From assembly GCA_021292105.1 (NCBI GenBank), contig CM037874.1:7428678-7492677 (forward strand): a stretch of 64,000 nt of DNA. Reading direction: 5' to 3'. Of the stretch, positions 38,286 to 46,751 are shown piece after piece. The position numbers and the translations under genes are program-made. This DNA comes from Anadara kagoshimensis (lineage: Eukaryota; Mollusca; Bivalvia; Arcoida; Arcidae). Each line of letters begins with the position of its first letter. Position 1 is the first letter of the stretch. The notes below the pieces were generated by a model, which was not told the origin of the DNA, did not search any database, and saw only the letters and a program-made list of their open reading frames with translations.

Positions 38286-39720
38286 CTGAAAACCTGTCAA
38301 AATAAAACAAAAACATGTGTAAGTAAGGTAGCAAGTTATTATACAACTACAAGTATAAAATGTTCCAACTAAATTAACAATCTGGGCTTAATATTGACCC
38401 TACAAATATCCCTATGTTTGTGTGTATTTAGTACAGTTTTGATGTTCATCAAAACAGTTGTTGTAATAATTTCTGTCCTACTATTCCACAAAATGTTGTC
38501 AACAGAAAATAAAATCTACAATGCCACTTATCCTCTCCACTAAACGTTAAGCGACCGGAATATAACTTAACAGTGATAAAAAACTAGTGAAACATGTCCA
38601 TAAAAAATGTAAAAATAGACATTGAGCAATATAGAGGATGAACCAAATTACTGCAATGACATGGAAGTGTAAAAGACAAAATTAAAGAAAAAGGAAAATG
38701 CAGTACCAAACCTAGACTCAACATGGGTCCTACGCATTGCTAGCAAGACGATCTACTACACGAGTTACTTTTCAAGCTTGATTTGTCACATAACAAATGA
38801 CAAAGATACCAGTGTGGCAGACCAGGCTCAATAGGTGTCCGGTAGCTCAGTCAGTAGAGCGTCCCACTTGTATTGTGAAGGTTGACTAATAGACGAACTA
38901 ACATATTGGTCCCAGGGTGGAACCTGGTAGTTTCACATTGAATCAAAAAAAGAATGGAGTAATGTGGCGGATTAAGCGTGATAGGTGTCCAGGTAGCTCA
39001 CTTGGTAGAGCATCCCACTAGTAATGGGATGGTCCCGGGTTCAAGCACCAGTACCAACTTTTACAATTTACAACGAGGGTAAAGAAAGTAAACAACTACA
39101 TGTATTTTCATTGTGACAATTATCATGATTGATAAGTATGGCATCACTACACCATTTACAGATAATGGTAATGGTCTATAACTTGGATATCACTGTATAC
39201 AGTTAAAAGTTGTGTACTGTTTTAAGGCTGGCCAATTTTAGAAAAACTATAAAATTGTTGAATTAATGTGAAATTCTTAAAGTTGGTGTCATTTTACCAA
39301 ATGCCTAAGAAAAGAATGTCAATCTGTCCATCGGTCAATGTACACTTTTTAAGGCACAGACAGATTTTAAGGGGAGATATTTTGTTTTGGGAATTGTTAC
39401 TAATGTAATCACTGGTAATTACAAGTGCCTGTATTGTAAGGAGTTCCATATTATTCAGTAATAAATCACAAGACTGGAATTTATATCTTATCACACGTTT
39501 TCGATATTGAACATGGGTTGGTATAATGATTATTATATCCCACAAACATGACATAAGCGTACCGATCTTAATCTTTTCTTCAAACTAAGTCTGCTTACCT
39601 CTCACACCTGAAACACGTGTGTCAACATTACAAACAGGAAGTGTCTTCAGGTGAAGGTCGATTTCGATCACAAGTTATCTCCCTTGAAGCAAGATTATGG
39701 CGACCGCTTGTTAGCAACCA
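38286..39720 (-). promoter_or_regulatory. HGH1 5'UTR intron and promoter region
   Basis: On the minus strand TTTTGACAG at about 38294 is a good acceptor 54 bp upstream of the HGH1 ATG, and GTGTGAGAG/GTAAGC at about 39599 is a good donor. This implies a non-coding first exon just upstream of 39600 and a 1.3-kb 5'UTR intron. The proposed first exon/promoter contains a palindromic E-box CACGTG at 39614-39619. No TATA box is evident. Transcription start is inferred. Confidence 0.45.
38836..39062 (+). mobile_element. Two tandem tRNA-like SINE heads
   Basis: Two copies in the same orientation, each led by a similar stretch. Copy 1 (about 38838) has GGTAGCTCAGTCAGTAGAGC; copy 2 (about 38992) has GGTAGCTCACTTGGTAGAGC. 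In copy 2, TCCCACTAGTAATGGGA can fold as an anticodon arm with an AGT anticodon, and box B is GGGTTCAAGC. The T arm and acceptor stem do not close properly, so these are SINE heads and not functional tRNA genes. Confidence 0.6.
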
Positions 39721-40860: not shown

Positions 40861-41450
40861 TACCATTGATCTAGCAGTTCACCTATCTTACTGCTGGATG
40901 TAAGCTGAAATCAATATACCATTGATCCAGCAGTTCACCGTTCTTACTGCTGGATGTAAGCTGAAATCAATATACCATTGATCCAGCAGTTCTCCGTTCT
41001 TACTGCTGGGTGTCAGCTGAAATCTGTACACCATTGATCTAGCAGCTCACCTTTCCTACTGCTTGGTGTCAGCTGAAATTAGCACACCATTGTTCCAGCA
41101 ATTCACCTTATTTACTGCTGGTTGCCAGCTTTAAACAGTACACCATTGATCCAGCAGTTCACCTTTCTTACAGCTTGGTGTCAGCTTTAATCAGTACACC
41201 ATTGATCCAGCAGTTCACCTTTTTACTGCTACATGTATACCATTGATCCAGCAGTTCACCTTTCTTACTGCTGCATGTCAGATTTAATCAGTACACCAAT
41301 GTCAATGATCCAGCAGTTCACCTTTCTTACTGCTGCATGTCAGATTTAATCAGTACACCAATGTCAATGATCCAGCATTTCACCTTTCTTACTGCTGCAT
41401 GGCAGATTTAATCAGTACACCAATGTCAATGATCCAGCAGTTCATCTTTA
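40861..41450. repeat. ~57-bp minisatellite, about ten diverged copies
   Basis: Units contain CCATTGATCCAGCAGTTCAC, then CTTTCTTACTGCTGSATGT (S = G or C). Unit length varies and one short unit lies near 41225. Divergence is higher than in the arrays at 17 and 26 kb, so it is older. The last units overlap a minus-strand ORF (41389-41658) that I do not accept as a gene. Confidence 0.9.
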
Positions 41451-41659: not shown

Positions 41660-43192
41660 TGGTAGAACTATAGTGTGAGGGATTGTAGATTCAAGTCCTA
41701 ATATGACATAAGCATTTTTCCCTCATCTGTTAAATATATACATGTATTTATACAAGAACCTGCAAATTGTGTATCAATTATGCTGGTATTTACTGTTGTT
41801 TATATATCCACATATGGTAACTTTCCCACAGATATCAATTATGTATGTGTATAGTTACATCTTATACAACAGAAGATGATACAATTAGCATGGTTAATAA
41901 TTAATGTGTGACTACAACCTTTGACATTACAAACCAATATATCTTACTACAGAATCTTCAATTAATCTTCAGGGATTTTTCTGACTATTCTTGTAAAAAT
42001 ACCTTGATTACAAATAAGGTTTGCCCACTTAACACGTAATAACAGCTAAGTTTGTGCAAAATAATTACATTACAACAGCTTATACTTTATAACATTAAAA
42101 TTGGTTATCATGAAGATGGCCATCAGAAAGTGTTGAATGTATTTTCAACACAATGGATATGGAATGATATCAGTTTCCATTTTCCTGTACAAACAACATT
42201 ATTCTTGGAATTCACAACATAACCATTTTTCAAATGTCCCACACAAATATTAAGTGGTATTAATCACATGATACAGCCGCAAAACCCCATAGGGAAATTG
42301 ATTGACCAAACAGAAAAATTGGTTGACATGTATCAATTTGAAATTCCCATTATACATGTATTTTGGACACTTTTGGTACCTTTTTTCTGTAGCAGAGTTT
42401 CGTTGATCTACAGATACCATCTCTTTCTTTTTCCATTTGTATGTAATCTAGTGTTGACAGTGATCATATAGTCACAAGTGACATCCCTTAACCATCTTTT
42501 ATGGGGACATGGGGAAGTCAAACAATGATGGGAATCAATGTGTCCTATTACCATGAATCATTTACCATGGAATAGTATGTTTTTATTGATTACCAATAAT
42601 CAGGTAAATTATTGATTTTTCATTTCAGTTGTTAAATACACTTTATTTCTTTAATGGAGCAGTTTATTGTTTCATGGCGAGTCGGTGACAAACTAGATGA
42701 ACATCTCCAATAAAATCAGGAATTGTAACCTTTTTTATTCACATAATTTGTTAGTCATAATGATTTCAGTCCAATAACAAACATTATTGTTCAGAATTAT
42801 TTATGCAAAAGATGACATCAAAATGCTATTAAAATAGTGAAACATTTAAACATTTTAAATTTTATTGAATTATATCATTTTTCTAAACCAATGTATGAAC
42901 TATTAAAAAACTTCTTAAATTTCTATTGAAATTGAAAAAAATATAAATGTTAATCGATCAACCTGTAGAATACACATTTCAAACACATTTTGAAGATAAA
43001 GCATTATGTTGTCAGCAAGAAGTAAAGATTTAGTTTTTGTAACACTACTTTAACAGATTACTGTCAATAAAGTGAGGCAAAAAACTTTTAAATTTAGATT
43101 TTACAAATATTATCTAGTTCTTTACAGTTTCAAAGTCCATAGAATTGCTGTCTTTATTTATAAATTTCAATCAATTTAAGGGTTATAATTTA
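41660..43192. other. Intergenic sequence left of the Crypton element
   Basis: AT-rich. A reverse fragment of repeat E lies at about 42225-42290 (TTAATCACATGATACAGCC). Otherwise nothing recognised. Confidence 0.55.
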
Positions 43193-43359
43193 GGAGATAA
43201 CTGTCTTGTATTTGAAGAGTTCCGACCGTAAAACGTGGATTTTACTGTCGCAAATTGAGGTCTACCTGGCGACGCTTGCGGAGCCAGGTAACCGGTATTT
43301 GCGACAGTAAAATCCACGTTTTACGGTCGGAACTCTTCAAATACAAGACAGTTATCTCC
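43193..43359. repeat. Perfect 63-bp-arm hairpin at the 3' side of the Crypton
   Basis: Arms 43193-43255 and 43297-43359 are exact reverse complements over 63 bp, with a smaller stem inside the loop (TACCTGGC/GCCAGGTA). Each arm contains one near-palindromic site (43222-43250 and 43302-43330): arms CGACCGTAAAA and TTTTACTGTCG around the spacer CGTGGA. The same site, with one spacer change, lies at 46678-46710 on the other side of the recombinase gene. The hairpin lies 312 bp after the recombinase stop codon. Confidence 0.95.
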
Positions 43360-43520
43360 ATTCTAATGCAAATCAAATTTAAATCGATTTGGTATTGAAG
43401 GAAATCACCACTGAGTATTTTTAATGCGAGACGCATCACTAATTTATAAAGTAGATCATATTGTTACGCAAAGAAAAATAGTTCTGTTATTAAAACACGA
43501 AGATCAAGTGATATGATAAT

Positions 43521-43526
43521 TTTATT
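43521..43526 (-). terminator. Polyadenylation signal of the Crypton gene
   Basis: AATAAA on the minus strand, about 145 bp after the recombinase stop codon and before the hairpin. Confidence 0.5.
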
Positions 43527-43670
43527 GTTTGAAGTATATTACAGATTAAAAATAAACTTCTGTAAATTGTTAAAAATATCGTTTTTGTTAGCAATTACGA
43601 AACCTTGATAATGTTTCAATATTACGTCACAGATGATGTCAGATCATGCAATATGTAGGTCAGTTCGTAT

Positions 43671-45650
43671 TTACTGTTGTCCGAGGTGGTAGTTGAATAC
43701 TTGCACACTGGAATTATGAATTTCAAATTGTTTTTGATATGAGACGGAGAGATTTGACATGTTGGGGATTCTTAATTGTTGGTTACTTAAAAAACTGGGA
43801 GCAAATGAGGGACAAGGCTGGGGAGGAAAATGGGTAAGTCCTTTATTAAATGCTTCTGGTCCAATATAGGGTTGAATCTGCAATGTACTTTCACTCTGGA
43901 GGCTTTTACCACTTAAAATACCAGAGTATGAACGCTTCTGTTTGTCAGAAGAATCGGCATTATAAGAATCTAGACTTGCCTCGCATTTATGGCCAGTAAT
44001 TTTCATTATTTCACGGTTTGGGACACCAGCATGTGCAAGAATTTTCACTGTACTTGCCCTTACAGAATGGTTTGTGTACACCCTACTCAACTTTGCAGCT
44101 TTTGATATTTCTTTCATGAATCCAGTGATAGTTTTTTCTCCAACTGGTCTGCTTGTGTACCAGATGGTGTCAGTTTCTTTAACTCTAGGGCGGGGTTGCT
44201 GGAAGAGAAAGTTTGATCCAGGATTTCTTTTTTGTATGTACGTCTTAAATGCCAATACAGGGCAATCTTTTTCACCTGTTGCATACATTCTAGGCTTTGT
44301 TTCAAAAGCCTTATCACTAAGATCACCCTGGTGATTTTTAGTTGTTTCACTAGAAATAATTTCTACATACTCAATGCCAAAATCATCAGTTTTAGTCTGA
44401 AATGTAGTATGAGTGAAACTCCTCAGGTTTTCCCTACCCCTTCTACCCAAGTGTAAAACAAGGGAAAACCAGACCTTATACTGTAAAGATTTGGCAGAAT
44501 CAATTGACAAAATTTCAGAACTTCTAAGTTTTTCCATGTCACCTTCAGTTATAGGGGGATAATGTGTAGTTTTGTCTAAACCTTCTGCTTGGATTTTTTT
44601 CAACATAGAACTAAACATTTGATTAGACAGGTGAAAGTCAGAATCAGTCAATATATTAAATTTCTTGTTGTGAGGTGGCAATGAAAGGTGTCTTTTAATG
44701 GCTGCACGGATTCCAACATAGGTGCTTTTTGCATACAATTTCCCATCTGCATTGCGCACTACAGAATAAAATTGCTTCAAGGTTTTGTCCAGTACAGGCA
44801 CAGGTAGGTCTTCAAATTTGGTAGACATCTTTCTGGCAGTCAAATATTCTATGAAAAAATGGAGTGATTTTGATTAGACAGTTTTCAAAGATTCAAGTTT
44901 ATTAAATAAATTTTATAAACATAATGATGATTATACTAGTTTGAAAATTTCAAAAATTGAAATTGAATGAAATCAGAAATCTATTTTCATTATTATTACT
45001 ATTATTAAACATGTTTATTTCAAGTTAAGTTTTTATTTACAACATATGCCTAGTTATTTGATTGATTTTTTCTTTCTGTAATCAAGTAAATTTATAACAT
45101 TTTTTTCTTTTTAACAGATTCAATGATTGTTTTTAAATAGAAAAAGTTCAGTGGCTTGTCATAGAACTTTTAAAAATACATTTGAAGATAATAGCTGAAA
45201 TTATAATATTTCAAGAAAAATCAAGAGTAGAATTAAATTAGATTTTCAATAAACTAATACTTTGTTAAAACACAACTTCATTAATCTACAAATTTACAGA
45301 TTTTAATACATAAATAAGGAAAACACACCTGTAAAAACATTCACACCATATTTTGTCATCTTTTTAGTCCCTTTACTTTTTGAACCCTCAATAATGTCCT
45401 CCCTTTCCTGTCCTGTTAACTCTGGAAACCTTGCATTTTGACCAGGACTGCATGGTTCAAAAGGGGCATATCCACCATTCTCAGATTCAACAGACATGTT
45501 TTCTTCAATGCTATAATTTACATCCTCAATAACAGCAGTAGCAGCAATTAGATCATCATCTGAACATGCATTTGTCTCATCCATTGAAAATTCCTCATCT
45601 AGAAATGAGTGAAACATATTTACTATACCTTTATAACATAAATACACAGT

Positions 45651-45691
<41 letters not shown>

Positions 45692-45779
45692 AAATCCATT
45701 GATTTATTTACTTGCTACAAGGTTAATAAGTAGAGGACCGTAACTCCCAAAAATATGTGTGGCCACTATTTTTTGTTCT

Positions 45780-45816
<37 letters not shown>

Positions 45817-46271
45817 TATTTTATTACTGTTATAACTTGTTATCAAAATAGTAGGGCATCATCTCCAGGGGTGAAGCTTAAATATTTTGAGTTAGGGGCC
45901 CAGCTCACTTCAGAAAAGAAGTTGTAGTAGTAACAAATAGCTAAAATGTGTTAACATTAAGGTGTCTAGACTGATTTTTATTAGCCATGGGCTACTGGGC
46001 TCCTGCTAATCTCCATCCCTGATCCCTGTGCCTATATAGAATGTGATGAAATGTGTGAATGAGAGTTATCTCCCTTTGATTGTTTATGTCCCTCGAGGAC
46101 CCATGGTTAGGTTATTATTATTATAGTTATTATCATTATTCCACATTATGCAATTTATAGCACATAGTTCTCAGAAAATGATGGATTTATTAGTATTCAG
46201 TTCATCTCTCTCTCTCTCCTCTCTCTTTCTTTGTCTCTCTCTCTTTCTTTGCCTCTCTCTCTCTTTCTTTG

Positions 46272-46305
<34 letters not shown>

Positions 46306-46593
46306 AATTATATGCCATAATGGAACTATAGAAATTCACGAAATAATCTTCACCGTTCTCTCTCTCTCTCTCATTCCGTCGTCTGCTAAGCTATCAGGGC
46401 CGGGGTATCGATGTATGCAGTTTTGTATATATTTGTATATAATTTATATATATTCGATAATATTATAAAGAGAAACAAAATTAGAATTACCAAAAACATC
46501 CGCAACACTCGTTTCAGTGGAGTCAGTCAATGACCCGACATCTGCTTCTAAAATAAAATTTGGCAGTTCCGATTCATCAAAATTCTCCGTCAT
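43671..46593 (-). CDS. Crypton-type tyrosine recombinase (DUF3504-like), 516 aa in three exons
   Basis: DNA-cutting and -joining enzyme of a Crypton transposon. Minus-strand exons: 46593-46491, 45598-45329, 44848-43671; all introns GT-AG; 1551 nt, 517 codons with stop. Residues 1-124 are an acidic N-terminal region. Residues ~120-200 are the SAM-like DNA-binding domain (EYLTARKMSTKF ... YVGIRAAIKRHL). Residues ~220-430 are the catalytic domain with the full set expected of the family: Arg in LGRRGRENLRS (~261), Lys in SSETTKNHQG (~295), HSVR (His ~385, Arg ~388), TGHK (His ~411) and the nucleophile Tyr in LDSYN (~420). The tail is Pro/Ser/Gln-rich. The start ATG lies 85 bp inside the palindromic site at 46678. 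A domesticated host gene with this domain is possible, but the flanking hairpin and palindromic sites favour a transposon. Confidence 0.85.
45656..45814. repeat. (CA)n microsatellite and poly-T run in Crypton intron 1
   Basis: A CA run at about 45656-45688 and a run of more than 30 T at about 45779-45813. Both lie in the intron between the first and second recombinase exons. The CA run extends a spurious in-frame upstream peptide (VCVCVCV) that is removed by splicing. Confidence 0.9.
46206..46376. repeat. (CT)n low-complexity tracts
   Basis: Imperfect TCTC tracts at 46206-46302 and 46356-46372, also in Crypton intron 1. The overlapping serine/leucine-rich ORF is an artefact of this repeat. 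Confidence 0.9.
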
Positions 46594-46677
46594 CTTGTTT
46601 GTAAACAAACGCACATGTACCGGCGCGTAGGAATATATTGCGTAATCGTAACCTAGTTAGCGCGCGACATCTTAACT

Positions 46678-46710
46678 CCGACCGTAAAACGTAGATTTTA
46701 CTGCGGTCGG
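46678..46710. other. Candidate tyrosine-recombinase crossover site, 5' side of Crypton
   Basis: Near-palindrome: left arm CCGACCGTAAAA, spacer CGTAGA, right arm TTTTAC then CGGTCGG after a 2-bp insertion. It matches the site in each hairpin arm at 43222-43250 and 43302-43330 over 27 bp with one mismatch, which falls in the spacer. Confidence 0.65.
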
Positions 46711-46751
46711 CGTCCAATCAAAATTGTGTTTACAAAGAGTTTGCATTAGAA

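Follow-up and report, generated by a model that had tools for sequence, protein, structure and literature searches.

A Crypton of Anadara kagoshimensis with a terminal hairpin and a copy of its far end at the hairpin foot

The 64-kb stretch of the Anadara kagoshimensis genome analyzed here (G000:C18:7428678-7492677; "the window," in whose positions all features below are given) carries a Crypton, a tyrosine recombinase element, one end of which is a long perfect hairpin lying directly 3′ of the recombinase gene. At the level of sequence, comparison with relatives in the 1.115 Gb genome (36 contigs searched) establishes this hairpin end, a copy of the opposite end at the hairpin's inner foot, conservative insertion, and the same layout in nonautonomous derivatives and in divergent families. 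It is probable that the terminal hairpin is the attachment structure of this animal Crypton and that the recombinase reads it in a folded or cruciform form; this estimate leaves aside any single-strand step, which is weighed separately below.

The element and its hairpin end

The Crypton (family A) is 3,562 bp long and occupies 43190..46751 on the minus strand, reading TTAGGAGATAAC...TTTGCATTAGAA on the plus strand. These are the limits of homology between family-A copies, which begins at 43190 or a few chance-matching bases earlier and stops at 46751; they correct the span of 43193..46751 given by the initial annotation, in which the far-end copy described below had gone unmentioned. The outer hairpin arm, which is the element terminus (43193..43255, plus strand), and the inner arm (43297..43359, minus strand) are 63 nt each and 100% complementary, with a 41-nt loop between them (43256..43296), so the perfect 63-bp hairpin of that annotation stands. 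Abutting the inner arm is ATTCTAATGCAAA (43360..43372), the reverse complement of the far end TTTGCATTAGAA (46740..46751, read from copies) with one extra T. Joining the two ends computationally, as a circle would, lets the far end pair with ATTCTAATGCAAA and lengthens the stem from 63 pairs to about 76, with 2 nt unpaired at the junction; the element thus permanently carries, at its inner foot, a copy of the predicted circle junction that is two bases short. The rule that animal Cryptons have no terminal repeats is broken by this terminal palindrome with its 10-13 bp far-end copy, and that rule is a description rather than a requirement.

The initial annotation had also placed a DUF3504 recombinase gene in the element; this is borne out, and the tyrosine recombinase gene looks intact. 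The open reading frame (ORF) at 43671-44843 (minus strand) matches PF00589 (5.1e-9) and PF12012 (DUF3504; 6.6e-8), both over the Pfam cut-off, and lies in exon 3 (43671..44848), which carries the tyrosine recombinase/DUF3504 domain according to Pfam and alignment. Together with two inferred upstream exons on the same strand, exon 2 (45329..45598) and exon 1 (46491..46593, with a GT donor), all with predicted splice sites and GT/AG borders, it would form one 516-residue frame whose sole stop is at its end. Residues R135, K169, H259, R262, H285, and Y294, which we take to be catalytic, are invariant in eight aligned proteins from five families, so the element encodes the DUF3504-related tyrosine recombinase with R-H-R-Y residues that is expected of a Crypton. 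Apart from the recombinase and its N-terminal part, just two other frames reach 80 aa, one antisense and one of low complexity; there is no reverse transcriptase, DDE/HUH, or Rep/helicase candidate among these four ORFs, two of which were run against Pfam.

Copies in the genome and a nonautonomous derivative

A genome search with the hairpin scored 40 places among 676 candidates, 12 at 98-100% identity and 28 at 93-94%, and one with the recombinase scored 106 of 925 (fragments left out of the reading include those at C5:45.70 Mb, C1:33.68 Mb, C14:70.94 Mb, and C17:39.88 Mb). All 12 hairpins of 98-100% identity adjoin a recombinase copy in the same orientation; no recombinase lies beside the other 28 among the recombinase matches listed. 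The initial annotation had allowed that hairpins without a recombinase might belong to an unrelated miniature inverted-repeat transposable element (MITE) with target duplications of its own. Hairpins of this kind do prevail (28 of the 40 scored), but they mark a derivative that has the element's own two ends and no target duplication, and recombinase linkage and shared ends rule out an unrelated MITE. Recombinase copies lacking the hairpin, the other doubt raised there, are found among damaged copies: some of these have no whole hairpin (L026 and L027 are without the inner arm, and their common flanks mark them as one duplicated insertion; the hairpin of L021 is mostly gone). Other family-A copies have lost inner parts of the hairpin (L014 and L016) or part of the outer arm (L017).

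The derivative, a nonautonomous MITE of ∼570 bp, retains both ends of family A. Its arm pattern, with up to two mismatches, has 206 + 220 = 426 matches in the genome and none in a reversed control, which suggests about 200 MITE copies or more. Forty copies chosen by hairpin match were read (L052-L091); L073 is the insertion of L072, leaving 39 distinct ones. The far end was located by pattern in 33 of the 39 and not found in six; measured from GGAG, it lies 554-583 bp away in 32 of the 33 and 440 bp away in L080. One MITE (L064; G000:C18:45565910-45567010) sits at the border of the loop in an older, degenerate hairpin like its own, an insertion into its own kind. L072 (C1:9.19 Mb) and L073 (C1:9.60 Mb) are 0.4 Mb apart and share their flanks in opposite orientation, and this pair is an inverted segmental duplication or an assembly artifact.

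The hairpin appears to be kept up. Four arm positions (11, 13, 16, and 17) distinguish the autonomous family from the MITEs, each changed on both arms, and the hairpin is 100% identical to that of the window in five distinct copies (C13:22.9, C13:8.8, C9:11.6, C2:16.9, and C10:25.1 Mb) whose 3′ untranslated regions are 93.6-97.4% identical to it. This argues for a function of the hairpin, conversion between its arms, or perhaps both.

Insertion boundaries and target

TTAGGAG starts the left end of all 39 distinct MITEs; the base before it is A in 27, T in nine, C in three, and G in none, with A preceding that base in 38. The MITE far end is followed by T in 33 of 33, with T at +8 in 31. All 14 readable left ends of gene-bearing copies begin TTAGG, and the far end, sought in 16 gene-bearing loci, was found in 14 (two of them one duplicated insertion; L031 and L032 are without it), where the next base is T in 12 and A in two, one being the window. 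Because the base on the left varies (H), the A on the right is fixed, and A can follow TTAGAA, the element is best delimited as TTAGGAG...TTAGAA with nothing duplicated. The family-A ends TTAGGAG and CATTAGAA share TTAG, which lies inside the element, 3 bases inside its right end; for the original, fungal Cryptons, 4- or 6-bp direct repeats at both ends are described.

When the flanks of five MITEs (L067 and L075, both in tandem units, and L083, L085, and L066) are joined, they are gapless at the junction against their best-matching unoccupied repeats among the matches listed (89-98% identity). For L052 and L084 the best unoccupied match reaches no more than 66-78% identity, and gaps near the junction occur in several of the weaker matches of L066, L075, and L084. 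The absence of a target-site duplication that is expected of a Crypton is thus seen in five insertions, all of the derivative family and none of them gene-bearing. As these junctions read, insertion is shown to be conservative, without target duplication, at an A/T-rich target of about 5′-AAH^TNNNNNWTT.

Other families with the same layout

Families B, C, D, and E, picked for several near-equal copies in the recombinase search list, encode proteins 30-32% identical to that of the window. A palindrome lies 3′ of the gene in all three copies each of B (L092-L094), C (L095-L097), and D (L098-L100), and in two of three copies of E (L101 and L103; L102 is rearranged). These palindromes are 142-167 bp long at 92-96%, apart from that of damaged L093 (114 bp at 79%). 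The far end is ATATTTACAAT in B, C, and E (for E it is present in L101 and L102 and was not seen in L103) and TTACCCTACC in D, and the inner foot that abuts the inner arm again carries it reversed, as ATTGTAAATAT for ATATTTACAAT and GGTAGGGTAA for TTACCCTACC. The outer ends in the copies read are TAA or TATA followed by (A/T/G)T, which matches the family-A rule. With the ends joined, the computed stem gains 11-13 pairs beyond the 2-nt unpaired step in A, its MITE, and B, and 10 pairs beyond a small internal loop in D. The three copies of family C are 99.8-99.9% identical over 2.63 kb, so this family has moved in recent times.

The hairpins themselves are mostly different sequences: in blastn comparisons between families, matches occur only among B, C, and E (75% between B and C; 42-45 nt of E in common with these two), and the hairpins of A, D, F, and G have none. 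F and G come from a further sample of 10 of the next 12 recombinase matches (C13:3.79 Mb and C10:30.26 Mb were left out), in which 1.3 kb downstream of the gene was inspected. Six of the 10 have a 145-173-bp palindrome at 92-94%; these are the new families F (L109 and L110) and G (L114), both read at the hairpin end alone, and further members of B (L111-L113). The same palindrome test on 50 chunks of the window is positive in one, the chunk with the focal element.

A junction pattern of the B/C/E type has 10 matches in the genome against 0 and 0 in the control. One of them is L102 of family E (G000:C6:58662000-58668000), which contains the exact head-to-tail junction of TTTCTTAA with ATATTTACAATACTG, together with a second copy of the element's first 27 bases, half a hairpin between, and a collapsed hairpin at the end. 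Two others, L117 and L118, are neither of them a plain tandem copy; L118 is a short palindrome with the far-end motif on either side. At L104 (G000:C11:3858600-3866600) two family-B copies stand head to tail, the second without about its first 750 bp and with the arm repeated at the hairpin; after reading, this pair was rejected as a circle junction.

The loxP-like dyads and rival explanations

The initial annotation had called the element a Crypton with loxP/FRT-like sites, and the three dyad copies that it described are present. S lies in the outer arm (43223..43250, plus strand; an 11-6-11 dyad), its inverted copy S′ in the inner arm (43302..43329, minus strand; a pattern match), and S3 41 nt inside the far end (46679..46710, plus strand); S and S3 were judged by pattern match and shuffles. 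They share CGACCGTAAAACGTRGATTTTACTG, at 43223-43247 (plus), 43305-43329 (minus), and 46679-46703 (plus), which with up to three mismatches occurs three times in the 64 kb and not at all in 100 shuffles. Among the 14 gene-bearing family-A copies whose loop could be read, two have the loop between S and S′ inverted (L010, and L017, which also has a deletion), as do two of the 39 MITEs (L077 and L087); in family E, L101 and L103 carry opposite loop orientations. A search for the expected product of S x S3 recombination (40 scored of 843 candidates) found two places, L105 and L106, at which all 103 nt of the query are covered at 89-90% identity; both are solo scars with proper ends and their own unrelated flanks. 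The inverted loops and the two scars may be the expected residue of the recombinase acting on S, S′, and S3. The dyad was rejected as a universal part of these elements: compared with 40 shuffles each, far-end copies of it stand out in A and D and not in B, C, and E, unlike the hairpin with a far-end copy at its foot, which is found in A-E.

What the dyads do is best considered together with the other accounts of the hairpin. That the 29-bp dyads are themselves loxP/FRT-like crossover sites for double-stranded integration and excision, as first proposed, seems unlikely. The 11-bp arms about a 6-bp spacer (5 of 2000 shuffles of the family-A arm do as well), the three copies, the S-S′ inversions in L010, L017, L077, and L087, and the S x S3 deletion scars L105 and L106 all speak for it, but ordinary recombination between the arms, or between the 27-bp direct repeats, can also yield inversions and scars, the S-S3 likeness exceeds shuffles in just two of five families, and insertion in the copies read falls beyond the dyads, with boundaries 33 bp outside them at the hairpin end and 41 bp at the far end. 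Since the empty sites agree with these boundaries, insertion is placed at the hairpin foot and not in the dyad spacer; what holds of the first proposal is that the hairpin is an end of the element, as its linkage to a recombinase at 12 of 12 loci indicates. Conventional tyrosine recombination of both strands, placed at the hairpin foot with a 0-1 bp overlap and a hairpin that merely orients binding or is read as a cruciform, is a possibility to be taken seriously if with some doubt. An overlap of at most one base explains the boundary data equally well, and the arms would supply paired binding sites; yet this account leaves the far-end copy at the inner foot without a role, overlaps are typically 6-8 bp long (PMC3212892), and a longer overlap should give both segregation classes, whereas the other class is absent from all 39 left ends of the MITEs.

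Two further explanations concern the origin of the hairpin. That it is an independent palindromic MITE that landed by chance beside a recombinase gene is scarcely credible, even with no adjoining recombinase match at 28 of 40 scored hairpins: 33 of the 39 copies read have the element's other end 440-583 bp off, there is no target duplication where empty sites exist, the 12 near-identical hairpins all adjoin a recombinase, and the corresponding place in other families holds a different hairpin. Helitrons, like IS200-IS605 elements, resemble the focal element in having a subterminal hairpin (3′ in Helitrons), no target duplication, and an A/T-rich target; their enzymes are HUH nucleases. A Helitron/Helentron-like rolling-circle element with a captured recombinase gene is nonetheless very improbable, as there is no Rep/helicase ORF among the four element ORFs of at least 80 aa and the hairpins of families A-G are each found beside a recombinase, for all that a 3′ terminal hairpin is described for Helitrons (PMC8268682).

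Several observations weigh against a hairpin that is read as the attachment structure. The folding was computed from joined ends, and the ends used for C and E were not exact; a search for head-to-tail junctions of family A gave three matches, each with 3 mismatches. The hairpin is no better conserved than its surroundings in L014 (92.3 vs 92.6%) and L016 (82.4 vs 94.2%), and gene conversion between the arms can also keep them perfect. Four of the 10 further recombinase loci (L107, L108, L115, and L116) have no strong palindrome within 1.3 kb. The MITEs were picked by hairpin match, so deviating ends are perhaps undersampled among them, the 14 gene-bearing TTAGG ends being less exposed to this. 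Finally, all of the families come from one genome, and known Cryptons of other species were compared by their descriptions.

A possible mechanism

If the hairpin is the attachment structure, the element would move as a circle or an excised strand, in which the far end comes to lie beside the hairpin's outer foot. In one strand, the far end would then pair with its copy at the inner foot, so that both ends would merge into a single unbroken stem whose base holds the junction and a 2-nt bulge. The recombinase would recognize this folded or cruciform structure, perhaps assisted in some families by the arm dyads, and swap strands with the target at the junction; on the joined ends the exchange point would be GCATTAGAA^TTAGG, the exact circle junction being TTTGCATTAGAA followed by TTAGGAG. 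One strand might be exchanged, with replication completing the insertion.

Two-strand exchange over a 6-8 bp overlap should leave, after replication, an overlap from either partner. A single segregation class is found here at 39 of 39 MITE left ends and at the 14 readable gene-bearing left ends, and in the 47 far ends that were read (33 + 14) TTAGG never comes next (L039 has TTAG and then departs). This single class implies either that the overlap is about one base at most or that one strand is exchanged and replication follows, as in integron cassettes (PMC2727003); because the junctions are sharp and one-sided, single-strand exchange is likelier than a two-strand exchange over 6-8 bp. The foldable end, the unpaired crossover bases, the absence of target duplication, and the A/T-rich target would all fit single-strand exchange and are not proof of it. 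That animal Cryptons transpose as folded single strands, with an attC-like stem and by a pathway like that of integrons and CTX phage, is quite possible, and we advance it tentatively.

Relation to known elements and side observations

Integron attC sites belong to cassettes that have no integrase of their own. They are among the closest parallels: they share with the focal element (PMC2727003) a tyrosine recombinase, a palindrome foldable in one strand, extrahelical stem bases, and a crossover near the stem base. The target in A. kagoshimensis differs in being loosely specified chromosomal DNA, and the use of one strand would be consistent with attC-like signs in the sequence, namely the foldable end, the junction bulge, and the one class of MITE left ends. 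CTX phage and the elements SE-6945 and SE-6283 likewise integrate or circularize with a tyrosine recombinase through one strand; these are bacterial, with no animal case among them (PMC9345347). DIRS-1 is a tyrosine recombinase element that keeps an internal region complementary to its two ends (PMC5633606); DIRS elements, however, are retrotransposons with inverted long terminal repeats and an internal copy, whereas the copy here stands at the foot of a terminal hairpin. Membership in DIRS was rejected, as the focal element has no reverse transcriptase among its four ORFs of at least 80 aa.

The CryptonA group of animals, as described (PMC3212892), is like the focal element in that a tyrosine recombinase/DUF3504 relative is the sole evident product, no target is duplicated, and nonautonomous derivatives outnumber autonomous copies. 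No terminal repeats are reported for it, in contrast to the 140-170-bp terminal hairpin and far-end reverse complement of the present families; Crypton boundaries are called difficult to characterize in the same account, and the mode of movement is proposed by analogy. A literature search, to which most subscription journals and Repbase were outside, found nothing on hairpin ends of Cryptons, and an earlier account of hairpin-ended Cryptons elsewhere is possible. The human Eulor5/6 repeats are described as Crypton-like at their ends (PMC5753468), a lead only.

Two features of the window touch the element less directly. The opening bases of the outer arm, GGAGATAACT, occur four times in the window against 0.08 expected, at both arm starts, at 46064-46073 (minus), and at 39673-39682 (minus); two of these sites are outside the hairpin and one is outside the element, and GGAGATAACT may be a widespread motif in the A. 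kagoshimensis genome. Tandem arrays with 56- and 62-bp units around CCAGCAGTTCACCTTTCTTACTGCTG lie at 40862-41449.

Significance

The hairpin and its embedded far-end copy provide an exact border rule by which copies and derivatives become annotatable, and the hairpin-ended layout suggests how targets are chosen. As a hairpin common to related groups in one genome, it suggests that such elements recognize their ends by a new means, and the mechanism is directly testable with a hairpin of ∼170 nt and the 516-residue recombinase. If one strand is used, the chemistry of bacterial integrons would exist in animals, and the vertebrate DUF3504 genes KCTD1, KIAA1958, ZMYM2-4, and QRICH1 (PMC3212892) might descend from a structure-reading recombinase.

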